Virus record (IMG/VR): IMGVR_UViG_3300021961_000273
Span: 1-36,948 of that record
Length of the DNA: 36,948 nt
Reading direction: 5' to 3' (one strand)
From: a virus
Below, piece after piece: positions 1,659-18,376 of the stretch (within the stretch, counting starts at the first letter, position 1; each line of letters begins with the position of its first letter). Position numbers and translations under genes: made by a program. Below the pieces are notes generated by a model that was given only the letters and a program-made list of their open reading frames with translations, did no database searches and had not been told where the DNA came from.

Positions 1659-2453
1659 ATGGCACCTATTCAGTACATCGTTGACGCTAATTGTTGCGAA
1701 CCATATGGCATCAGATGCTGCTGGGTCGTTCCTGATGGTGTAAGACACGTCACCTTTGAAGTATGGGGTGGCGGCGGAGGCGGCGGCTCAGGTGGAAACC
1801 AATGCAACTGCTGTCAAACTGGTGAACCTGGACTCGGCGGCGCTTATGCTAGAAAGTCTGTTAACGTAACTCCTGGAGATTACTACTGGGTCTGTGCAGG
1901 AAACGGTGGTATGGCTCATGATCATCCTCAAAGTGGTGTTCCTGTTTCTAACTGCTGTAATGGAATTTCTGGTGGAGCAAGTTATGTAATCGGTGTCGGA
2001 CTCACCAACTTCTGTTCAGAAGGCGGAAGAGGAGGCCGAAGTGATCTTGGCGTTCAGTGCTATTACTGGTGTGGATGTAACGGATATAGTTCTGCTACTC
2101 CTGGAATCAGTGCCACTGCATATGGGTATGATTATCACGCCCATTCTAATGGATATAGTATGAGTTATACCCAAGAAGAATCTCCCTATCACCATCAAAA
2201 ACGCGCTGGTAATGGCGCTGGCCCTTACGGTGGTGGTGGTGGATGGAACTATTCGGGTGGTGCTTATTGTGCATTTACCACTTATCCTGGTGGAGAAAAC
2301 TGGAGAGCAGCTGCTACTCTGACAGAAACTTTATGGCATGGTAGAATTCCTGGTGGTGGTGGAGCTCCCTATCACAATAGTCACACTTGTATGTGTTACA
2401 ATGGTGCGAAATCAGGAAAAGGTGCTCCTGGCGCAGTTAAAATTACATACTGA
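1659..2453 (+). CDS. Gly/Cys-rich adhesin-like tail fibre protein 1
   Basis: 264 residues with the layout of the phage glycine-rich domain: a W-V-V-P-D-G-V entry strand (about 22-28), FEVWGGGGGGG (about 33-43), several Gly-rich loops and the closing motif GAPGAVKITY at the C-terminus. It has 17 Cys (about 6%), including CC pairs at both ends, plus many Tyr and His. Proteins of this type form distal fibre tips that contact the host; the Cys content is unusual and may mean metal binding or disulphides. The ATG follows the previous stop by one base. The next gene resembles a fibre-assembly chaperone, and this pair is repeated twice downstream. Confidence 0.75.
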   Translation: MAPIQYIVDANCCEPYGIRCCWVVPDGVRHVTFEVWGGGGGGGSGGNQCNCCQTGEPGLGGAYARKSVNVTPGDYYWVCAGNGGMAHDHPQSGVPVSNCCNGISGGASYVIGVGLTNFCSEGGRGGRSDLGVQCYYWCGCNGYSSATPGISATAYGYDYHAHSNGYSMSYTQEESPYHHQKRAGNGAGPYGGGGGWNYSGGAYCAFTTYPGGENWRAAATLTETLWHGRIPGGGGAPYHNSHTCMCYNGAKSGKGAPGAVKITY

Positions 2454-2461
2454 TACGAACA

Positions 2462-3043
2462 ATGGCAGACTATAAAGTAGCGGTAAATTCGACAACTGGT
2501 AAACTGGGACCTTATCCTGTACTTCCTCAGGATGATCCTGCTCCAGCACCAGTTGGATATCAGTATGTGAATCTTGTAGAAGGTACACCAGCACATGACA
2601 TTCTTGCTCAGGTTGAAGGAGCAGAACATCCTAACATTGATATTAATAGTTCTTCTTACATCTTTGCAGAAGGTATTTGGGACTATACTGAAAACAAGTG
2701 TCCAATTACTTGGAACCAAGTAATTACATGTAGAAATTCTTTATTATCTCAGAGCGACAAATTTTATGTTGCAGCCAAGTACCATGGCGTTGCTTATGCT
2801 GAGAAAATGTGGAAAGATTACAGAGCTCATCTGAGAGTCTTGTTTCAAAATGTTGATTTTCAGAATGACGATCCTTGCGATTTCCAATTTCCAGAGGGTC
2901 CTACTGAAATTGAAGCAATGTCGGAATACATTCAGTCTGGTGAAGCTACAATGAAAGTTATTGCTGATTCTAAGGTGAGAAGAGGTGATGTCTGGTACAC
3001 CGAAATGTATCAGCGTCTTGGCATTAGCACAACAGGAGTATAG
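2462..3043 (+). CDS. Tail-fibre assembly chaperone-like protein 1
   Basis: 193 residues. Residues about 90-145 contain RNSLLSQSDK, then about 17 residues on WKDYRAHLRVL, then FPEGPTEIEA. This order (R-x-x-L-L-x-x-SD, W-x-x-YR-x-x-LR, FP-x-x-P) is that of phage tail-assembly chaperones (Phage_tail_APC-type), which assist folding or trimerisation of the fibre encoded just upstream and are usually absent from the virion. The N-terminal half, a proline-rich beta-looking segment, would recognise its own fibre. It starts 8 bases after adhesin gene 1. The family is recognised by pattern only. Confidence 0.65.
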   Translation: MADYKVAVNSTTGKLGPYPVLPQDDPAPAPVGYQYVNLVEGTPAHDILAQVEGAEHPNIDINSSSYIFAEGIWDYTENKCPITWNQVITCRNSLLSQSDKFYVAAKYHGVAYAEKMWKDYRAHLRVLFQNVDFQNDDPCDFQFPEGPTEIEAMSEYIQSGEATMKVIADSKVRRGDVWYTEMYQRLGISTTGV

Positions 3044-3049
3044 TAAACA

Positions 3050-3889
3050 ATGGGAAGACATTCAACAAAAGGATACGATTGTAACCTAGCATGTTCAGGA
3101 ATTTTCTGGCATACTCCTGAAGATGGTGACAGAGTTACTACTGTAGGTCTTGGACACGTTTCCAGATGCTGTCTATGGACAGTTCCTCAAGGTGTATATT
3201 GTACAACCTTCGAGGTATGGGGTGGCGGTGGCCAAGGAAATGGTAAGTGCTGCTGCTCTTGCTATCCTGGTCCTGGTGGAACAGGTGGTGGATATGCCTC
3301 TAGAACTATCGCTGTTCAACCTGGCTGGCAATACACTCTCTGTGCTGGCGGTGGCGGTTGGGATGCTTGCTGGAATTCCAACTTCATTGGTTCATGTCAG
3401 TGTAGAGGTTGTCAGTCTTTCGTAATGGGTTGCGGTCTTGGATATGGCGGTGCTGCTTGTAACGACTGCGGACAAATCGGAAGACTTCAAGCAGATGGTG
3501 GATTAGGTGGCGGTTGGTGTAACGACTGCTTCGAATGGGGTGCTTGTACAGGTGGTCACCACAAATCCGCTTACAAGTGTGGTTGTGCTCACGGTGGCGA
3601 CATTAACCTTCAAGGTGGTAGAGGAGCCTTATTAGCTTGCTTCAATGACTGCTACTGGTTTGTATCTGGTGGTGCTGGTGGATTTGCTGGACCCGATGTT
3701 ATGGGTCACCGTCAGTGCTGTTGCTATCAGTGTGGTCCCGGCCGTTGTGCTGGTGCAGGTGCTTGCGGATGCTGTGGATCGTTCCCTGGAGGCGGCGGCG
3801 CAATTGGTCCTATGTCGGGATCAAGCCACTGCGACGGTTGCTCTTGCTCTGGTAAGGGTGGCAACGGTCTGATCAAAATTACATATTGA
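3050..3889 (+). CDS. Gly/Cys-rich adhesin-like tail fibre protein 2
   Basis: 279 residues with the same plan as the other two adhesins: C-C-L-W-T-V-P-Q-G-V, then FEVWGGGGQGNG, a CCCSC cluster, Gly loops, and the C-terminal GKGGNGLIKITY. By my count it has 35 cysteines (about one residue in eight), often as CxC, CC or CCC, e.g. HRQCCCYQCG near residue 225. No signal peptide is present, so it folds in the cytoplasm. Position and homology suggest a receptor-contacting fibre tip; the Cys could hold metal or form disulphides after lysis. ATG is 6 bases after the preceding stop. Confidence 0.75.
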   Translation: MGRHSTKGYDCNLACSGIFWHTPEDGDRVTTVGLGHVSRCCLWTVPQGVYCTTFEVWGGGGQGNGKCCCSCYPGPGGTGGGYASRTIAVQPGWQYTLCAGGGGWDACWNSNFIGSCQCRGCQSFVMGCGLGYGGAACNDCGQIGRLQADGGLGGGWCNDCFEWGACTGGHHKSAYKCGCAHGGDINLQGGRGALLACFNDCYWFVSGGAGGFAGPDVMGHRQCCCYQCGPGRCAGAGACGCCGSFPGGGGAIGPMSGSSHCDGCSCSGKGGNGLIKITY

Positions 3890-3910
3890 TAGGGGGAAAA
3901 CTTTAAAGAA

Positions 3911-4510
3911 ATGGCTACCACTAAATATTGGTCAATTGTATATCATCAGAATCATCTAGATGCTGGGCATTTTTATCGTTTTGTTGGAAACGTAAGTACG
4001 ACAACTGAAAAAAATGCAATTGCAATTGATGAAAGAGAATCTGTTTGGGTAGAAGTTACTGGTGATCTTAAGACTGCTTTAACAGATCCTGCAGATACCA
4101 GAATCGTTGATGACAGACTTACCAGATATAATTTTACTACTGGACTGTGGGCTTCTCAGTATGTTAATCCAGAAGTAACCAAAGAACAACCTTCCCCCGA
4201 TCACATCTCTTATGAGGATGAGATTGAAATGAGAGACAGACTCATCAAGGCTGCTGAAATGCGTAAATTGATGAGAGATTGTTCTGCTGGTTTCTCTGTT
4301 GTTCTTGATAATTATATTACTGAACTAAATAATCTTGGAATTGCTACTGGTAGAGATGTGGTTTTCCCACCTCAACCTTGGGCATCCTCAGTCAAAAGTA
4401 ACGTTGAGACTGGATTTGAGGATATTGAAAACAAGAAGAGGGGTCAGAGTTTAGTGAATGATCCCAATGTAACACCAAGATTCAGCGCCGAGGGATACGT
4501 CAATGGCTAG
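3911..4510 (+). CDS. Tail-fibre assembly chaperone-like protein 2 (divergent)
   Basis: 199 residues, placed between adhesins 2 and 3 exactly as the other chaperone-like genes follow their adhesins. Residues about 125-175 read MRDRLIKAAEM, then VLDNYITELNNLG, then VVFPPQPW, loosely matching the R-x-x-L, Y-x-x-x-L and FP-x-x-P skeleton of tail-assembly chaperones. The match is weaker than in the other two. A long acidic/basic tail follows, and the last 8 bases overlap the start of adhesin 3. Function is inferred mainly from cassette position. Confidence 0.5.
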   Translation: MATTKYWSIVYHQNHLDAGHFYRFVGNVSTTTEKNAIAIDERESVWVEVTGDLKTALTDPADTRIVDDRLTRYNFTTGLWASQYVNPEVTKEQPSPDHISYEDEIEMRDRLIKAAEMRKLMRDCSAGFSVVLDNYITELNNLGIATGRDVVFPPQPWASSVKSNVETGFEDIENKKRGQSLVNDPNVTPRFSAEGYVNG

Positions 4511-5267
4511 AAATTTATATTCTGCGTCTACTTATAAAGATGGTTGCGGGGTATGCGTTGATGATAACGATAAGACAGGATGTCAAATTCGTTGTGTCCG
4601 CATGGTGGACTTTTGCAACGGCGGAGCTTATACCTGGGTTGTTCCTACTGGTGTAACTAGAATGACCATCGAAGCCTGGGGTGGCGGCGGTGGTGGAGCA
4701 GGTGTTTGCTGCTGCGACTGTTATCACTTGTCTCACGGTGGATCTGGTGGCGGATACAGTGCTGTTACTATTGCTACTACTGCTGGATGTAATTACGCCG
4801 TTTGTGTAGGACGCGGTGGTAACGAAGACGTAACTGGTAAGTTAGGTCGTCACTGGTGCTGCTTTGGCAAAGATGGTGAAACATCTTATGTTACTGGATA
4901 TAATCTTTCTGGTTTCTGTGCAACAGGCGGCGGCGGAGCTGCTATGAATGGTGACGGATGTCACATGCACTGTGGATGTTATTCAAACGCACCCGGTTGT
5001 GGATCTGGTGGTAACGCCTACGGTAACGGTGCTCCTGGTGGACAAGCGATGTATTCCACTGCTGAACCAAGATCTCTTGGTTATGCTGGTGGAGGTGCTT
5101 TCACAGCAGGAACAAAGATGTTCTCTCATGAGCATTGCTCTCAGTGTCGCCCTGGTGATGCTGGCGCTCTTCCTGGTGGCGGTGGAGATGGTCCCCGTAA
5201 CTACAACTGCTGCTGCTATCAAGCTGGTAACGGTGGCACTGGTCTCGTTCGCATTAGATTTGAATAA
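4503..5267 (+). CDS. Gly/Cys-rich adhesin-like tail fibre protein 3
   Basis: 254 residues. It shares the entry TWVVPTGV (about 40-47), IEAWGGGGGGAGV, a CCCDCY cluster like that of adhesin 2 (CCCSCY), a late NYNCCCYQAG motif, and closing GNGGTGLVRIRFE. It has 23 Cys (about 9%). The conserved positions of the CCC-x-CY and CCCYQ motifs across paralogues argue for a structural role of the Cys rather than random composition. Its start overlaps the end of the previous gene by 8 bases. It is most likely an alternative or additional host-contact tip. Confidence 0.75.
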   Translation: MARNLYSASTYKDGCGVCVDDNDKTGCQIRCVRMVDFCNGGAYTWVVPTGVTRMTIEAWGGGGGGAGVCCCDCYHLSHGGSGGGYSAVTIATTAGCNYAVCVGRGGNEDVTGKLGRHWCCFGKDGETSYVTGYNLSGFCATGGGGAAMNGDGCHMHCGCYSNAPGCGSGGNAYGNGAPGGQAMYSTAEPRSLGYAGGGAFTAGTKMFSHEHCSQCRPGDAGALPGGGGDGPRNYNCCCYQAGNGGTGLVRIRFE

Positions 5268-5786: not shown

Positions 5787-7547
5787 TCAAAGAGCACCAA
5801 AGAAGAATGCAACAGCCGCACTCTCTGCAGCCTCGTTTTTAACGTACTGCACAGAGGCGGCTCTTTGAGTATCTGCGACTCCTGCACGAATGTCTGGTGT
5901 ATCGGCAGTTAATCTGACTGCCTGATTGAATGTAGCAACACCAGTTACCGATAGACCGTCATCGAGAGTTGCAATTTTGGTTGCATGGACTGGTCCGGTA
6001 AGATCAGCAGCATAGTTTTGTGTTGCTAATCTTGCAGTATAGTTTTGTCCGTAGAATGTAGAGATACCATTTGTGGATAGTCTCTCAGCATGAATCAATC
6101 CACTCTGTAAGGTAACACCAGTGCCAACAAAGATAGTGGATACTGTGCTAACACCGGAGAGGTTCAGAGATTGCGCTGTAAGACTTGTCTGATCAAGTCT
6201 AGCACTTCCTATGTCCAAACGTGTGGAACGGAGGGTTGTAGTCGATCCTACGCTTACTACAGCATTATCTCCATCTACGGTGACACTTTGATTGCCAAAG
6301 GTTGCAATCCCAGTGACTCTCATATTACCAAGAACAATCAATGCGGTGTTAACACCGACAAGATTGCCAATATGTTCAATATCTACTGTGATGTCATTGG
6401 TTCCCTCATATGTCGCTTGTCTTGGGAGAAATAGCGAGGTTCCAATAGAGAATCCAGAACCACCATCAAGAATACTTACAACGGCAGATCCATTAGCGGA
6501 AACATCAACAGAAAATAATGCACCAGTGCCAGCAGCACCAGCTAGAGGATGTCCTATGCATGTATAGATGCCAGCACTTCTTCCAGATTGTTCATTAACA
6601 CCACCGAGATTCGTGATTCCAGTGATGACACCTACAGTCTGAACAACTGTAGCAATGCCAAGTGCTCCACCAATTTGTAAGTTAGATACTGTAGAGACAC
6701 CAGTTGTTGTTGAGATATTACCAGCAACATTGCCAAAGACATTACCAAAGAATCCAAAACCATCAGACCCAATACCAAGAGCCGAGATGTTTGTGTTAAG
6801 ATAGAGGGAGTCATCACCAACACCAGCGAAGTTTTGGTCTGCTGGTACTGACAGTGACAGGAAGTTTACATCCTGAATTGACGACTTAACACAAAGAGTC
6901 TGACCAGAACGAAGGAAAATATCATCAAAAATTTCTGCTTCGTTTGATGCAATACCCTTAGCGTATGTGATATAATCGGAATCAAGGAGTTCTTCTACGG
7001 TTCCAGAAGAAATACCAATCGTGATGCGAGCATCCTTTGATTGGTTTGCGTTAGAAACGTAAAGAGTCGTCTTGGTTGGGTTACTTGCCGTTAAGATTGG
7101 CAGGTTTCTATTGATGTTCTGGGTTGTGATGCCAGTTTTAATTGCTTCGCCCTTACCAAAGAGTGTTGCAATAGCCTCTCTATATTCTACAGCACCAGTT
7201 GCCAGGAAACTTACGTCTGGTTTGGTGCAAGATACGAATACACTATCACCACTACGGACACCAACGTTGGAAATTCTTAATGACTCAAGAGCATCAATCC
7301 TGACACCAGTCAGAAGTTTATCAGATTCTCCAACAAGTAGTTCTGTTCTTACACCTACACCACCACTTCTTTCTACAAAGATTGTACCGACGCCAACCGT
7401 TACGTTTGCAGGATCGGAGCCCTGGTTCACGATATCGATGTTTACACCTGTAAGATTGCCATCTGATGTGTAGAGAATGGCGTTGGTGTTAACACCCAGA
7501 TTTCGTGTGGTCTTGAGCGAATTTAACTTTCCAATTCTCGATGCCAC
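5787..7547 (-). CDS. Large fibre-like virion structural protein on the opposite strand
   Basis: 586 residues from GTG at 7547; a longer form from GTG at 7571 is possible. I prefer 7547 because AGAGGA stands 6 bases before it, whereas the first GTG has no ribosome site and lies only about 10 bases from the late promoter at 7581-7588. The protein is low in charge and consists of repeated beta units such as GVSTVS, TGVATF, GNVFGNVAGNI and LDGGSGFSIG, like cyanophage fibre or structural proteins. The C-terminus has VQYVKNEAAESAAVAFF. It is a single-gene inverted late unit between the adhesin cassettes and the sugar genes. Confidence 0.75.
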   Translation of the reverse strand: MASRIGKLNSLKTTRNLGVNTNAILYTSDGNLTGVNIDIVNQGSDPANVTVGVGTIFVERSGGVGVRTELLVGESDKLLTGVRIDALESLRISNVGVRSGDSVFVSCTKPDVSFLATGAVEYREAIATLFGKGEAIKTGITTQNINRNLPILTASNPTKTTLYVSNANQSKDARITIGISSGTVEELLDSDYITYAKGIASNEAEIFDDIFLRSGQTLCVKSSIQDVNFLSLSVPADQNFAGVGDDSLYLNTNISALGIGSDGFGFFGNVFGNVAGNISTTTGVSTVSNLQIGGALGIATVVQTVGVITGITNLGGVNEQSGRSAGIYTCIGHPLAGAAGTGALFSVDVSANGSAVVSILDGGSGFSIGTSLFLPRQATYEGTNDITVDIEHIGNLVGVNTALIVLGNMRVTGIATFGNQSVTVDGDNAVVSVGSTTTLRSTRLDIGSARLDQTSLTAQSLNLSGVSTVSTIFVGTGVTLQSGLIHAERLSTNGISTFYGQNYTARLATQNYAADLTGPVHATKIATLDDGLSVTGVATFNQAVRLTADTPDIRAGVADTQRAASVQYVKNEAAESAAVAFFFGAL

Positions 7548-8504: not shown

Positions 8505-9461
8505 ATGACAGCATCTAAGAAATCTTCCCCTCGCGGAAAGATTGCCTTTACTAATGGCGGTCTTGGCCGAATGTTAAGCGCAATCCGTCCGCTGGAAAGA
8601 TTCATTCAAGCACATCCTGAGAATAGAGTTATGACAAACTCTAGTCTCGATTTTGTTTGGGGTAATAAAATCCTCCAACCAAAGTCATATCATTCGGAGA
8701 TGAAGAACATCTTCAATGATGTAATCAAAGATAGAGAATGGATCGAAGCAGAACCATATACTGATTGGGAATATTACAATCAGAAGATCAGTATTGGTCA
8801 GGCGTTTGACAAACATTGGAATGGAAAGTACTCTGATAATCCAGAAGACTATCGTCCAAACATTTTTTTGAATGAAGAAGAACTTGCTTTTGGTAAAGCA
8901 ATTATTAATGCTGCCGAAAAAGAACACGGTAACGAAAAAACTATAATCATTCAACCTTTTGGTAGAGGAGCCAGCAAGGAAGAAGACCTTGAGACGGTGA
9001 TCGACAAGACTGGTAGAAGTTTTCATTTTGATTTTTACTTAGAACTTGTCAAACAACTCAGAACAGAGTATAATGTGGTGTGCATGTCGGAATTTAAACC
9101 TCCGAATGATGCATTATCGATCTGTCCAAAGGATGTAGAGATTCGCCATTGGTTTGGTGCCATCTCTCAATGCGACTATTTCATTGGTTGCGACAGCTTG
9201 GGACAACATGCTGCATATGCATTCAACACTCCTGGTAGTGTGATTATTGGAAGTACTTTCCCCGTGAATATTTCTTACCCACACTACTTCAACACAATCA
9301 CAAAGAAAGACTTTGTACCTCAGTTTGATACTTTCCGTTTGAGTGGGTTTGGATCTTACGAAGCATCCTTCTACAACTCTGGTTGTATGATGTTTGATGA
9401 ACAGGAAACTGAGGAAATTATCGAAAACATTATCAAAGACATTGAGGAAAAGACTAAATGA
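8505..9461 (+). CDS. GT9/heptosyltransferase-like glycosyltransferase
   Basis: 318 residues. Residues 147-154 (IIIQPFGR) begin a second Rossmann half, and CDYFIGCDSLGQHAAYAFNT (223-242) followed by VIIGST matches the nucleotide-sugar side of family 9 glycosyltransferases (D-x-x-IG-x-DS-x-x-x-H-x-A). GGLGRMLSA near the N-terminus fits the usual GxGD-like loop. It would transfer a sugar, plausibly heptose given the HldD-like neighbour, to a cell-surface or virion acceptor. The start ATG is 48 bases after the upstream gene; its stop overlaps the next gene by 4 bases (ATGA). The fold assignment is fair; the acceptor is unknown. Confidence 0.6.
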   Translation: MTASKKSSPRGKIAFTNGGLGRMLSAIRPLERFIQAHPENRVMTNSSLDFVWGNKILQPKSYHSEMKNIFNDVIKDREWIEAEPYTDWEYYNQKISIGQAFDKHWNGKYSDNPEDYRPNIFLNEEELAFGKAIINAAEKEHGNEKTIIIQPFGRGASKEEDLETVIDKTGRSFHFDFYLELVKQLRTEYNVVCMSEFKPPNDALSICPKDVEIRHWFGAISQCDYFIGCDSLGQHAAYAFNTPGSVIIGSTFPVNISYPHYFNTITKKDFVPQFDTFRLSGFGSYEASFYNSGCMMFDEQETEEIIENIIKDIEEKTK

Positions 9462-11212
9462 GCGTTTGGATTGGTGCTGTAACTCGCGGTCACAATGGTT
9501 CCGCTTGTTTGCTTAAGGATGGTGAATTAGTATTCTATCTTGAGGAAGAAAGACTTACTAGGAGAAAGTATGATGGTGGTCCTATGGCTGGACTGCTGAA
9601 GATGAAAGAGTATACTGATAAACTTGACTGCCTTGTTGTAGCACACACTGATGCGCTTTCTAAGGCAGGAAAAGTTGATTGGTCTGGTGATGATTATATT
9701 ACTGCTCTTGCTAGAAAGGTTGGATTGATTGATAGGTATGGACCTAGCAGAGATCATCCTCAAGTTGTAGACGTTGGTATGATTCACCACGAAATGCACG
9801 CTGCTTGTGCCTTTTATAACTCTGGATTTGATTCCGCAGCCTGTCTGATTGTTGATGGTGCTGGAACTTTTGTTCCTCTTGGCGAAGATAATATTGGTTG
9901 GGAATTGGAAACTATTTTCCAAGCATCTTATCCTTCTAACTTTATCACCAAGTACAAACACATTGGTGTTCGTGGACCTGTGACTACCTATGAAAAGATC
10001 CAAGTTCCTCACGCTCATCGTGGACGTAGTGAAGATGAAGGTCTGCATGATGTGATCTTTACTGATCACCCTGGTATTACAAAGACTTATGAGGCCATGA
10101 CCGATTATCTTGGTTTTGGTTTTATTGAAGCAGGTAAAGCAATGGGAATGGCACCTTATGGAAAACCAAATTCGGAAATCCCACCAATCTTCTTGGGCCC
10201 TGAAGGGCGTAGATTTAGTAATAGAAATCTTTTCGTTCCTAATTATCCTAACGGTGCATACGTTGATAAAACTCTCTTCTCTTATCTGGATACAGATAGT
10301 TTGGATGTGCAAAAAGATTTTGCGTATGCTGTTCAAGAAGCAACTTCTGACGAAATGGTTCGCTTAATTCATAAGGCGATAGAGATCACTGGAGAAAAGA
10401 ATATTGTTATTGCTGGTGGTTATGGTTTGAATTGTGTTGCAAACTATAAGTATCGCGACCACCTTCCCGAAGGTGTTAATCTTTATTGTGAGGCTATTGC
10501 TCACGACGGCGGCACTTGTGTTGGCGCAGCAAAATACGTTTGGCATGAACATGAAAAGGATATGACTATTAGAAAGAGTGAAACCCTATACCTGGGCCCC
10601 GAACCTTCTTATAAAAATATTGAACTTAATGAAGGTGAAGAAATCCGTGACGTAACTCCCGATGAGATTATCGATCTCATTCAGGAAGAGAATATTGTCG
10701 CTCTGTATCAAGGTCGTTCTGAGGCTGGTCCTCGTGCTCTCGGTAACAGGAGTCTTCTCTTTGATCCTACTGTCAAAGATGGTAAGGATAAAGTGAACCG
10801 TATCAAGAAGCGTGAATGGTTCCGTCCTTTTGCTGGTACGATTCTTGCCGATCATGTTCATGAATGGTTTGATCTTCGTGGTATGGATGACACTCCCTTC
10901 ATGATGTATGCTGTCAATTCTGCTTCTGAAGAGAAGGCCGAACAGATTCCCAGCATCATGCACGTTGATAAGACTTGTCGAATTCAGACTGTGACTGAGG
11001 AACAGAATCCAAATTACTTCAATCTGATTAAGACTTTCTATGCACGGACTGGTGTACCAATTCTATTCAATACTTCTTTCAACCTTGGTGGTGAGCCTCT
11101 TGTAGAGACTGTAGAGGATGCTCTGTGGACTCTTAGGAACTCTGGTATCAATTATCTGTATCTTGCAGATCTTGGTAAGTTAGTAACGATTATGTCAAAT
11201 GACAGAGAGTAG
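9458..11212 (+). CDS. Carbamoyltransferase, NodU/CmcH family (full length)
   Basis: 584 residues, the usual family length. N-terminal domain: GHNGSACLL (11-19) and the His cluster HHEMHAACAFYNSGFD (110-125), which binds metal and supports carbamoyl-adenylate formation in this Kae1-like domain; GGYGLNCVAN follows near 325. C-terminal domain: GPRALGNRS near 424-432, FRPFAGTIL, and LFNTSFNLGGEPLVE. The family transfers carbamoyl from carbamoyl phosphate with ATP to hydroxyls of sugars or other small molecules. With the epimerase and glycosyltransferase upstream it probably carbamoylates a surface or virion glycan. It overlaps both neighbours (4 bases before, 14 after). Confidence 0.9.
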   Translation: MSVWIGAVTRGHNGSACLLKDGELVFYLEEERLTRRKYDGGPMAGLLKMKEYTDKLDCLVVAHTDALSKAGKVDWSGDDYITALARKVGLIDRYGPSRDHPQVVDVGMIHHEMHAACAFYNSGFDSAACLIVDGAGTFVPLGEDNIGWELETIFQASYPSNFITKYKHIGVRGPVTTYEKIQVPHAHRGRSEDEGLHDVIFTDHPGITKTYEAMTDYLGFGFIEAGKAMGMAPYGKPNSEIPPIFLGPEGRRFSNRNLFVPNYPNGAYVDKTLFSYLDTDSLDVQKDFAYAVQEATSDEMVRLIHKAIEITGEKNIVIAGGYGLNCVANYKYRDHLPEGVNLYCEAIAHDGGTCVGAAKYVWHEHEKDMTIRKSETLYLGPEPSYKNIELNEGEEIRDVTPDEIIDLIQEENIVALYQGRSEAGPRALGNRSLLFDPTVKDGKDKVNRIKKREWFRPFAGTILADHVHEWFDLRGMDDTPFMMYAVNSASEEKAEQIPSIMHVDKTCRIQTVTEEQNPNYFNLIKTFYARTGVPILFNTSFNLGGEPLVETVEDALWTLRNSGINYLYLADLGKLVTIMSNDRE

Positions 11213-12266
11213 AACTGTATTGGGAGTCAATCTTACTCATGATGCTGGTATATGTCAGGTAACAGACGGTAAGATTGACTGGTTCCTTTCAGAAGAGAGA
11301 GCAAGTAGATTCAAACATGATATTGATCCTACTTTTGTTCTAAATTATTTGGAAAAGGATACCAAAATTGATAAATGGGTTATCACTGGATTGCTGCACA
11401 AACCTTGGGAACCAACATACATTCGTGAATGGGCTGTTGAATTTGATTATAAGGTAGCAAAGTGGTATAAGAAACTTCATGCAAAACAAAACGATCATAT
11501 CAGTCGAATCATAACTACAGAGCATCATATTTTTCATGCTGCTGCTGGTTATTATAATTCTGGATTTGATGATGCAGTTGTTGTAGTTGCTGACGGAATG
11601 GGCAATCCATTAAAATATGATGATGATGAACCATCCTGTCATGAAGTTGAGAGTCTATATCATGTAAAGAATGGGGACTTCAAATGTATCTGGAAAAATG
11701 TTACACCAACTTTTGTTGATTGTGATCGTCCATATCCAAAATGTGATTGGATCAATCAAAATTCCGAGATCGGAATTGGAATGGTTTACTCAGCTATGTC
11801 AGTTTATCTTGGATTTGGTGAACTTGGATCTGGAATTCTTATGGGGTTGTCTGCCTATGGTAAACATGATCCAAACATAAAATCTTTTCTCATCAACCCT
11901 GGTGTAATTGATCAATCACTATTTCATAGAGTTCAACACGGTTCAAAGTTTATACCATATGAATATGTGAAATTTGAGGGTAAAGTTGAAGATATGACTC
12001 CAGAACATCCAAAGTTTCAACCCCTCGCTAATCTTGCCTGGAGGTTGCAGTTAGATTTTGAGATTTATATGACCCATCTTCTCAAGAGTGCCATCATCAA
12101 AACTGGTTGTAAAAACGTTGTATTGTCTGGTGGTTGTGCATTAAATTGTGTAGCCAACTATGAATATTTGAAACACCTTCCAGAAGGAACTGACTTGTAT
12201 GTTGAACCAGTTAGTGACGACTCTGGTATTCCAATTGGAGCTGCATATTTGGGGTATGAACTATGA
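11199..12266 (+). CDS. Carbamoyltransferase N-terminal domain only
   Basis: 355 residues related to the preceding gene: NLTHDAGICQV (11-21), EHHIFHAAAGYYNSGFDD (108-125) with His109, His110 and His113, LMGLSAYGKHDPN, and GGCALNCVANYEYLKHLPEG. The product stops just after DDSGIPIGAAYLG, where full-length enzymes enter the C-terminal domain carrying GPRALGNRS, which is absent. No frameshift remnant of that domain follows, because the next gene starts with an ATGA overlap. It therefore looks like a stable one-domain form that may act with the full-length enzyme. Whether it is catalytic alone is unknown. Confidence 0.85.
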   Translation: MTESRTVLGVNLTHDAGICQVTDGKIDWFLSEERASRFKHDIDPTFVLNYLEKDTKIDKWVITGLLHKPWEPTYIREWAVEFDYKVAKWYKKLHAKQNDHISRIITTEHHIFHAAAGYYNSGFDDAVVVVADGMGNPLKYDDDEPSCHEVESLYHVKNGDFKCIWKNVTPTFVDCDRPYPKCDWINQNSEIGIGMVYSAMSVYLGFGELGSGILMGLSAYGKHDPNIKSFLINPGVIDQSLFHRVQHGSKFIPYEYVKFEGKVEDMTPEHPKFQPLANLAWRLQLDFEIYMTHLLKSAIIKTGCKNVVLSGGCALNCVANYEYLKHLPEGTDLYVEPVSDDSGIPIGAAYLGYEL

Positions 12267-15084: not shown

Positions 15085-15684
15085 ATGAAAGCAGATTACT
15101 CCATTGACCGAATCTCCAAAGAGGAAGCAAAGGGTCTGCTTCTACAGTATCACTATTTGAAGGACTTTTCTAAGGACTTTAAGTCTGGGTTCAATTATGG
15201 ACTTTTTAAGGATACTGATTGGGATTGTCCTCTTAGAGTAGGTGGGTGTCTTGGCACTTGCATATTCACGGGACTCCCTGTTCCAGAAATCGCAGTAGGA
15301 GCATTTGGACTACAACGACAAGAGCAGGAAGGTTTATTTGAACTTTCACGACTTTGCATTCACCCTGACACGCAGCAAGATGAATACAACATTACATCGT
15401 GGTTTGTATCGAGATGCATCAGACAACTCAGAAAAGATACACGGGTCAGAGCCATCATATCTTACGCTGATAGTTCTTTTCATGGCGGCACAATTTATCG
15501 CGCTTGTAACTTTAAATATTGCGGCCTTTCAGACACTAAAAAAGATTTCTACTATGCCGATGGAACCAAACATTCAAGAGGTAAAACCAAGGGGGTAGAT
15601 GGTGAGTGGCGTGATCGTTCTAGAAAGCATAGATACGTTATGATCTTCGACAAAAAACTTGAATTAAAATGGAAGACAGTTTAA
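15085..15684 (+). CDS. Mom-like DNA modification protein (GNAT-fold)
   Basis: 199 residues resembling phage Mu Mom and relatives: GAFGLQRQ strand, ELSRLCIHPD (86-95), Y-N-I-T-SWFVSR (101-110), and the hallmark SYADSSFHGGTIYRACNFKY (126-145) followed by CG. Mu Mom converts adenine in DNA to a carbamoylmethyl (acetamido) adenine, protecting phage DNA from restriction. The C-terminal KGVDGEWRDRSRKHRYVMIF is basic and may touch DNA. An extended -10 element precedes it. Chemistry in this phage is inferred; a different acyltransferase role is possible. Confidence 0.65.
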   Translation: MKADYSIDRISKEEAKGLLLQYHYLKDFSKDFKSGFNYGLFKDTDWDCPLRVGGCLGTCIFTGLPVPEIAVGAFGLQRQEQEGLFELSRLCIHPDTQQDEYNITSWFVSRCIRQLRKDTRVRAIISYADSSFHGGTIYRACNFKYCGLSDTKKDFYYADGTKHSRGKTKGVDGEWRDRSRKHRYVMIFDKKLELKWKTV

Positions 15685-16984: not shown

Positions 16985-16992
16985 AATAAATA
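16985..16992 (+). promoter_or_regulatory. Late promoter AATAAATA
   Basis: AATAAATA lies 21 bases before the ATG of the first CTS-like head protein gene (17014), in the short gap after the oxygenase. Position and sequence fit a T4-type late promoter and agree with expected late expression of head proteins. Confidence 0.65.
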
Positions 16993-17013: not shown

Positions 17014-17304
17014 ATGAAATCTTTTAAACAATTTGACGAAGAAGCAAAATCCTGCTGGAAAGGATATAAGAAAGTGGGCACCAAAATGAAAGGTGGCCGT
17101 CTTGTCAATAATTGTGTCAAGGAACGTGCTGATATGTGGCACCCCGATCCTGAGCAGGATCGCAAACTAGGTGGTCCTGGTGCTAACCAACGTGCTCGTG
17201 AAGATAGAGCAGCGTCTCAAAAAAAGAAACCTGATTATAGTAATAGATTGAAACCAGGAGAATCCTATATGGATTTTGCTAAACGTAAGAAATCTGGATC
17301 ATGA
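17014..17304 (+). CDS. Basic protein with capsid-targeting-like leader 1
   Basis: 96 residues. The N-terminus MKSFKQFDEEA resembles the T4 capsid-targeting sequence of internal proteins (IPIII begins MKTYQEFIAEA), which the prohead protease gp21 removes after the Glu. It is followed by a small basic domain, CWKGYKKVGTKMKGGRLVNNCVKE (two Cys), and a Lys/Arg-rich tail, as expected for a DNA-packing internal or ejected head protein. A late promoter precedes it. The next gene starts within its stop (ATGA) and carries the same type of leader. Role inferred; the small Cys domain is common in marine phages. Confidence 0.7.
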   Translation: MKSFKQFDEEAKSCWKGYKKVGTKMKGGRLVNNCVKERADMWHPDPEQDRKLGGPGANQRAREDRAASQKKKPDYSNRLKPGESYMDFAKRKKSGS

Positions 17305-17612
17305 AAAAATTTGGGGAATTTATAATTGAAGCGAACAAGAGTGGTGATTCTTCTCTGCGTGACTGGTTTAGCAAGAGTCGCTCTTCTGATGGCACCCCTG
17401 GTTGGGTTCAAATTGGTGGCCCCTATGCAGGGAAACCATGCGCCAAACAACCTGGACAAAAATCAAAACCCAAGTGCGGTTCAAGTAAAATGAAGCGCAA
17501 TCTTGATCGAGATGAGGAAGAAGTAGCTTTCAATAGAAAGCAAAGAAAAGATCCCAATCCAAACAGAAAAGGTAAAGCAATCAACGTTTCTACTGAAGGT
17601 AAAAAGAAATGA
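17301..17612 (+). CDS. Basic protein with capsid-targeting-like leader 2
   Basis: 103 residues starting MKKFGEFIIEA, again like the T4 internal-protein leader with a (L/I)-x-E processing motif (IIE before A11). The body contains GWVQIGGPYAGKPCAKQPG and K-P-KCGSSKMKR, then a long Lys/Arg/Asn-rich region with R-K-D-P-N-P-N-R. The DGTPGWVQ...PCAKQPGQ...PKC block looks like a small two-Cys domain often seen in marine phage proteins. ATGA overlaps at both ends make it the middle of three such genes. A packaged internal head protein is the leading idea. Confidence 0.7.
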   Translation: MKKFGEFIIEANKSGDSSLRDWFSKSRSSDGTPGWVQIGGPYAGKPCAKQPGQKSKPKCGSSKMKRNLDRDEEEVAFNRKQRKDPNPNRKGKAINVSTEGKKK

Positions 17613-18376
17613 AATCATTTAAATCGTTTGTGGTAGAAGCGATGGATCGCGAATACCGCAGAGAATTTGCTAGAGAGCGTCGTACAGAAAGAGAGGCGCA
17701 AGAGAAGCATGTAAAGTCAGGAATTGGTGCGAAGAAGAAAGGACCTAAACTGAGTACAACTAAGAGATCAGCATCTGCTGGTAAAGACTATGCTAATAGT
17801 CAGATGAGCAGTATTGCACTTCATGACAAAGCTTCTAAAAAGAGAGGTCATACTACAGGCAATCCCTTCCCAGAAGAATATCAGTACGAAGAGTGTGGAT
17901 GCGAGCACGAAGAAGATGAAAAGGAAGAGACTAAGAAGGTAAAGCGTAGACCTATGGGTGGATCTGCCGCAAAGCCTGGTCCTAATAACAACTATGTAAA
18001 ACCTATGGGAGAGTCCACCATTGTGCATAAGATGGGTGGTGTCGTGATGGGTAAAACTCGAACCGATGACGGTAAGGACACCGTTCAGGTTGATGATGCG
18101 CCCGTTAGCAAAAGCACCCATGATTTTATGAAAAAGAAAGGGATGACAAAGGTTGATTCGAGCGGTAAACCAACCTCTGATACAGACTATGCGGAAAGAA
18201 AAGCAGCAGGTCTAAAAACTGTAAAGAAAGTAGATGAAGCAGCGGGTGAAAAGGATGCCTGCTATAAGAAGGTAAAGTCAAAATATGATGTTTGGCCTTC
18301 TGCCTATGCCTCTGGTGCTCTAGTAAAGTGCCGTAAGGTTGGTGCTGCTAACTGGGGCAACAAAAAGAAAAAGTAA
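17609..18376 (+). CDS. Basic protein with capsid-targeting-like leader 3
   Basis: 255 residues starting MKSFKSFVVEA, with a predicted gp21-type cut after VVE. A charged low-complexity middle (EEYQYEECGCEHEEDEKEE then KKVKRRPMGG) is followed by VDEAAGEKDACYKKVK and a C-terminal domain YDVWPSAYASGALVKCRKVGAANWG, a small two-Cys basic domain I have seen in many cyanophage proteins. The internal VDEA is another possible maturation site. Predicted overall very basic. Likely packaged in the head with the two preceding proteins. Inference from leader, composition and operon; no experiment known to me. Confidence 0.7.
   Translation: MKSFKSFVVEAMDREYRREFARERRTEREAQEKHVKSGIGAKKKGPKLSTTKRSASAGKDYANSQMSSIALHDKASKKRGHTTGNPFPEEYQYEECGCEHEEDEKEETKKVKRRPMGGSAAKPGPNNNYVKPMGESTIVHKMGGVVMGKTRTDDGKDTVQVDDAPVSKSTHDFMKKKGMTKVDSSGKPTSDTDYAERKAAGLKTVKKVDEAAGEKDACYKKVKSKYDVWPSAYASGALVKCRKVGAANWGNKKKK

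Follow-up and report, generated by a model that had tools for sequence, protein, structure and literature searches.

Three overlapping genes in a fragment of a T4-like phage probably encode internal head proteins, i.e., proteins that are targeted to the head by a common N-terminal leader, processed by the prohead protease gp21, and made of modules split from a cyanophage protein, T4-GC119. Packaging into the head via the leader is strongly supported by the sequence together with the published proteomes of homologues. Cleavage is probable, judging from the conservation of the sites; only by analogy with T4 is injection likely and an early host role plausible.

The three genes and their surroundings

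The DNA analysed here (the window) is a linear virus record of 36,948 bases. Its genes match the T4-type gp53, gp48, gp2, gp4, gp5, and gp32-type SSB families as well as PhoH and ThyX, which identifies it as a fragment of a T4-like phage, and its nearest isolates are phages of Synechococcus and Prochlorococcus. No gp21 gene was seen in the window because this 37-kb fragment lacks the head genes. At positions 1659 to 5267 (+ strand), three Gly/Cys-rich proteins of 254 to 279 aa have similar ends, with unrelated genes between them; they are probably tail or fibre-associated repeats. Two adjoining proteins that by eye resemble carbamoyltransferases are encoded upstream of a putative 2OG oxygenase and of a gene resembling glutaredoxin (9458 to 12266, + strand), and all of these are kept in the related contigs G002 and L088. 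The locus of interest comprises the following features.

16986 to 16992, + strand: T4-type late promoter-like box ATAAATA, 21 nt before the ATG of ORF1
17014 to 17304, + strand: ORF1, 96 aa, pI 9.9; leader, CWKGYK module, and FWHPDP/RKLGGPGANQRARED module
17014 to 17046, + strand: capsid-targeting leader of ORF1, MKSFKQFDEEA; has F4 and F7, but its Asp8 is unusual for gp21 cleavage, with FDE↓E as a possible alternative site
17047 to 17121, + strand: two-Cys module B of ORF1 (KSCWKGYKKVGTKMKGGRLVNNC)
17125 to 17301, + strand: module B2 of ORF1 (WHPDPEQDRKLGGPGANQRARED...LKPGESYMDF), preceded by a gp21-type site, VKE↓R, at residue 37
17301 to 17612, + strand: ORF2, 103 aa, pI 10.05; leader and SLRDWF module
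17301 to 17333, + strand: capsid-targeting leader of ORF2, MKKFGEFIIEA; predicted cut IIE↓A
17340 to 17576, + strand: module A of ORF2 (SGDSSLRDWFSKSRSSDGTPGWVQ...KCGSSKMKRN...)
17609 to 18376, + strand: ORF3, 255 aa, pI 9.6; leader, variable Lys/Glu-rich body, and C-terminal two-Cys module
17609 to 17641, + strand: capsid-targeting leader of ORF3, MKSFKSFVVEA; predicted cut VVE↓A
18236 to 18373, + strand: module C of ORF3 (EAAGEKDACYKKVKSKYDVWPSAYASGALVKCRKVGAANWG), preceded by a gp21-type site, VDE↓A, at residue 210

Two 4-bp ATGA overlaps join the three genes, whose products are all basic, as originally predicted. Their cysteines are paired (C14/C34, C47/C59, C96/C98, and C218/C241), in agreement with the small two-Cys domains proposed for them. 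As for the late promoter assigned to the trio, the ATAAATA box and its spacing are conserved in four relative contigs (L024, L086, L088, and G002), with divergent sequence farther upstream, but the 7-mer is not enriched across the window (7 found versus 7.75 expected). The trio itself varies between close relatives, ORF3 most of all. The middle of ORF3 is mostly absent from L024 and L086, in which a leader-like start and module C are retained.

A common leader that follows the T4 targeting rule

The common leader claimed for the three proteins was confirmed to the letter. Using a position-specific scoring matrix (PSSM) built from 67 unrelated leader proteins, we obtained scores of 25.3, 18.3, and 21.9 for ORF1, ORF2, and ORF3, respectively, compared with a maximum of 11.5 among 12,823 shuffled starts. 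The next best ATG start of the window scored 0.6, showing that in the window such starts are limited to the three ORFs. Leader DNA identity among the ORFs is 19 to 25 of 33 nt, that of the following 60 nt is 11 to 19, and protein matches among the trio are weak beyond residue 11, the leader being their main similarity.

Mutational work on IPIII of T4 has established that ten residues suffice, with positions 4 and 7 directing targeting and positions 8 and 10 processing (PMC9026906). Cleavage in T4 requires a hydrophobic residue at position 8. F4, F7, and E10 are present in all three leaders of the window. Residue 8 is Ile in ORF2 and Val in ORF3, both followed by E10 and A11, and it is Asp in ORF1 and its relatives in L024 and G002. 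From these residues, cleavage by gp21 appears likely for ORF2 and ORF3 and doubtful for ORF1 at residue 10; with its Asp8, ORF1 may be targeted but poorly cut, or cut as FDE↓E. The proposal that gp21 cuts after the leader Glu suits ORF2 and ORF3 and, in its simple form, is doubtful for ORF1.

In T4 itself, the top PSSM ranks were taken by the uncharacterised gp61.1, followed by IPIII, IPII, and IPI. The gp61.1 gene (967 to 1131 of record L430; T4 NC_000866 18966 to 19130, - strand) adjoins 61.2 and codes for a hypothetical protein of 54 aa that starts with MKTFKEFIKEDM, the top-scoring leader of T4, making it a candidate fourth T4 internal protein. A strict motif scan returned two leader-start ORFs in T4 (IPII and IPIII), one each in S-SM1, S-CAM22, and ACG-2014d, one real and one likely spurious ORF in P-RSM1, and zero in genome G004. 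Matches of the form MN-x-FY-x-x-WHDAE found with a looser motif were rejected as leaders, since by eye they are stretches of terminase-like ORFs.

The leader is a portable tag in IMG/VR

A degenerate DNA pattern for the leader matched at least 120 stretches in IMG/VR, while a decoy with the same codons in permuted order had no match there. When the leader was removed, the proteins fell into approximately 68 unrelated cargo clusters among the matches listed, with Pfam domains including adenylate kinase (ADK), ADP-ribosyltransferase (ART), GNAT, DnaJ, glucosaminidase, DPBB, zeta-type kinase, methyltransferase, and cytidylyltransferase. Conservation is 3.1 bits at residue 11 but only 0.14 bits at residue 12. 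Although the search pattern placed no constraint on position 6, 51 of the 67 leaders have Q or E there, as do MKTYQEF and MKTFKEF of T4. Chance as the cause of the common start was rejected on the basis of the shuffled starts, the permuted-codon decoy, and the conservation profile.

The common start might also be a functionless leftover of the recent duplication of a single gene, as the tandem arrangement and the DNA identity of the leaders would suggest. This is most improbable, since the bodies show no relationship beyond weak short matches and the leader precedes so many unrelated cargo clusters, its conservation ending sharply at residue 11. Furthermore, the relative of ORF3 in L024 has kept a leader-like MKSFKQFCEEC despite the loss of most of the middle of the protein.

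Among the matches listed, 22 of 115 loci have two or more leader genes, often as close neighbours. Four leader genes are clustered at 9876 to 11946 of contig L318 and another four at 6505 to 9422 of L238; the former include candidates for GNAT-like, ART-like, and SprT-like metalloprotease proteins (by eye or Pfam), and both clusters look like packaged-effector islands. As the label recurs in uncultured viruses on dozens of proteins that are otherwise unrelated, it looks like a widespread means of loading cargo proteins into phage particles. This breadth had escaped the original prediction, as had the nature of the protein bodies described below.

Leader proteins in published virion proteomes

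Published virion proteomes of related phages bear on packaging. T4-GC190, the sole strict leader protein of S-SM1, was reported among its virion proteins (PMC3037559), and the NMNAT of S-SCSM1, which starts with MKSFLQFLKEA, was found in the virion (PMC9602691). In S-CREM2, whose virion list has 52 proteins (PMC10665884), the annotated starts scoring above 6 are those of ORF154, ORF14, ORF6, ORF136, and ORF13, all five of which are in that list, against a base rate of 52 of 219. The 30 detected proteins of S-SZBM1 include a cytidylyltransferase (PMC9146016) that has a shortened start, MRFRQFIIEA; the two best leader proteins of that phage are absent from the 30. When only ATG starts were considered, 5 of the 7 leader proteins had been detected in virions (P approximately 0.003 versus base rates, in a small sample and with a threshold chosen after the data were seen).

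The S-CREM2 data also speak for the modules independently of the leader. Mass spectrometry of S-CREM2 virions yielded 7 peptides of ORF160 and 4 of ORF137 (PMC10665884); the former contains modules A, B, and C of GC119 type and the latter contains module D, which indicates that proteins related to the window modules belong to the particle. Several other virion-detected genes of S-CREM2 (OR473000, record L400) are of note. In the run ORF12 to ORF15 (noted at 10313 to 7704 and 13331 to 10310), ORF13 and the APH/ChoK-like kinase ORF14 carry leader-like starts, and a protein of the run annotated as a CRISPR-Cas9 nuclease has a leader-like RFASFMAEA at residues 18 to 26, with a CTG codon before it. 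The SAM hydrolase ORF6 (5081 to 3837) has the leader-like start MKDFDSFLEEF.

It could be argued that the leader directs sorting to, or interaction with, a target other than the prohead, e.g., a host membrane or a protease adaptor, and that its detection in virions reflects contamination. The authors of the proteomes indeed state that virion preparations may hold abundant non-virion proteins that persist through CsCl purification. We consider this explanation highly unlikely, because the leader residues are identical to those of the experimentally defined T4 capsid-targeting sequence, because all the S-CREM2 leader proteins were recovered in the virion against a base rate of 52 of 219, and because the S77 protease co-occurs in leader contigs. 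The prohead protease of that family (PF03420) was present in all 6 leader contigs of at least 100 kb and in 13 of 23 searched records, five of which had been retrieved via the trio or GC119 and not via the leader pattern, and a prohead protease is annotated in S-SM1 and S-CREM2. No S77 protease was found in random contigs, all of at most 88 kb (0 of 6 at 53 to 88 kb versus 5 of 12 leader contigs of 57 to 88 kb), a control that is only partial because no random contig was over 88 kb. Head targeting, as first proposed, is thus upheld by the match to the T4 residues, the portability of the leader over unrelated cargo, the presence in particles of most leader proteins of isolates with virion proteomes, and the same modules in S-CREM2 virions.

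The bodies are modules of GC119

The bodies of the three proteins match different parts of phrog_727, which corresponds to T4-GC119, with profile E-values of 3.6e-52 for ORF2, 8.5e-26 for ORF1, and 1.1e-21 for the C-terminus of ORF3. GC119 is a single protein encoded close to gp16 in S-SM1, S-P4, P-RSM1, and ACG-2014d. The S-SM1 protein (SSM1_115, annotated as hypothetical, not structural) and its S-P4 counterpart (gp060) contain all the modules of ORF1, ORF2, and the ORF3 C-terminus. Unlike the trio, the form of the isolates is one fusion of approximately 400 to 530 aa between gp16 and gp17, and the N-terminal leader is absent from the full sequences of the fused GC119 of S-P4 and S-SM1, whereas the window modules are three leader-tagged genes elsewhere, near phoH, thyX, and a Mom-like gene. 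Relatives in IMG/VR have the modules fused in many orders, or alone after the leader.

Searches of the three proteins against Pfam, NCBIfam, and PADLOC gave no functional family, and profile searches of the modules against the PDB gave nothing credible. AlphaFold models were weak (pLDDT of 61 for module A and 72 for module C), and Foldseek returned no PDB match for module C. When bacterial genomes were scanned for module C, 17 contigs were identified, nearly all marine MAG contigs; as many of the proteins resemble phage ones, we do not infer a cellular function for it.

In the fused proteins, whose linkers vary widely, a gp21-type site, [ILVMF]-x-E-[AGSKRN], precedes the modules at frequencies well above those of shuffled linkers. 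It was found in 30 of 30 cases before B2 (shuffled-linker mean, 4.2), 27 of 32 before A (6.0), 40 of 54 before C (13.6), and 25 of 40 before B (5.7), but in only 5 of 15 before D (2.7), counts that are not independent because the sequences are related; the sites could in part be domain edges. For module A, the conserved site of the fused form matches the leader-cut position of the tagged form (VxEAN-KSGDSS versus FIIEAN-KSGDSS), and whole leader-like copies occur at some junctions (TYKEFIAEG in contig L105 and KSFEDFLGEA in L021). These motifs raise the possibility, which we advance tentatively, that fused GC119 is a head polyprotein that enters the prohead, where gp21 would sever its modules at the conserved [ILVMF]-x-E sites and so deliver several small, cysteine-paired units, and that the phage studied here and its relatives encode these modules as separately tagged genes.

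Possible role of the packaged proteins

The trio is preceded, at a distance of approximately 1.3 kb, by a gene for a Mom-like DNA modification protein (15085 to 15684, + strand; Pfam PF25680, 1.6e-24), which G002, L024, L086, and L088 also retain. IPI, IPII, and IPIII of T4 are ejected, and each inhibits a type IV restriction enzyme (PMC12373910). Given the conserved Mom-like neighbour and the anti-restriction activity of the T4 proteins, an anti-restriction role of the trio is, by analogy, a fair guess.

Alternatively, the trio might be packaged via the leader but be structural, its proteins condensing DNA or forming part of the core, and either remain inside the particle or play no part in the host. 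Their high pI and Lys/Arg content would suit such a function, GC119 is usually encoded amid head and neck genes, and the modules have no similarity in Pfam, NCBIfam, PADLOC, or the PDB that points to an enzyme or inhibitor. We nevertheless regard a structural function as rather unlikely, because the T4 leader proteins are ejected and all three block restriction enzymes, other cargo under the same leader is plainly enzymatic, and the trio, ORF3 above all, is variable between close relatives.

DISCUSSION

We propose that the trio represents internal head proteins of a T4-like cyanophage that would be co-expressed late in infection. The ten-residue leader, with aromatic residues at positions 4 and 7, would dock each protein on the scaffold core as the prohead grows, after which the T4-type protease gp21 would cut after the leader Glu in ORF2 (IIE↓A) and ORF3 (VVE↓A), and, perhaps inefficiently, at an atypical DEE↓A or FDE↓E in ORF1. 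Second cuts might occur before the modules, at VKE↓R in ORF1 and VDE↓A in ORF3. The freed small, basic two-Cys modules would remain with the DNA and probably exit with it at infection, and they may serve a protective function early in infection, for instance by blocking host restriction in the way that IPI to IPIII do in T4.

The trio resembles the T4 internal proteins (MKTFKEF..., MKTYQEFIAEA) in its N-terminal leader of 10 to 11 residues with aromatic positions 4 and 7 and Glu10, in its small, basic, and unrelated bodies, and in the clustering of the genes. It differs from them in that one leader has Asp8, the cargo consists of cyanophage-protein modules, and the bodies lack convincing homology to the T4 proteins, BLASTP giving mainly leader matches and weak low-complexity ones. 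Body homology is not a defining trait, since the T4 internal proteins themselves have only the leader in common. The cytidylyltransferase/NMNAT-like virion protein T4-GC190 has the same leader (MKKFSAFLNEA, MKNFSSFLTEA, and the S-SCSM1 start) and is likewise found in virions, but its body is unrelated and has a nucleotidyltransferase domain. From their description in the literature, the head ejection proteins of phiKZ and SPN3US are also packaged, with S/A-X-E propeptides trimmed by a gp21-related protease; that description has no MKxFxxF leader. The T4 leader was already known; its reach over cyanophages and other uncultured T4-like phages and the split and fused GC119 modules appear to be new, neither having been found in the open-licence literature searched.

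T4 internal proteins disarm the restriction systems of the host ahead of all phage gene expression, and most descriptions of such proteins come from T-even coliphages. The existence of fused and split modules makes a gp21-cut head polyprotein testable in existing mass spectrometry data. If packaged proteins of marine and other uncultured T4-like phages do bear this tag, one could read from sequence alone which proteins many phages inject. The tag would then also offer a simple explanation for the presence of NMNAT-like enzymes, a SAM hydrolase, and kinases in cyanophage virions, which the authors of the proteomes had left open as possible contamination.
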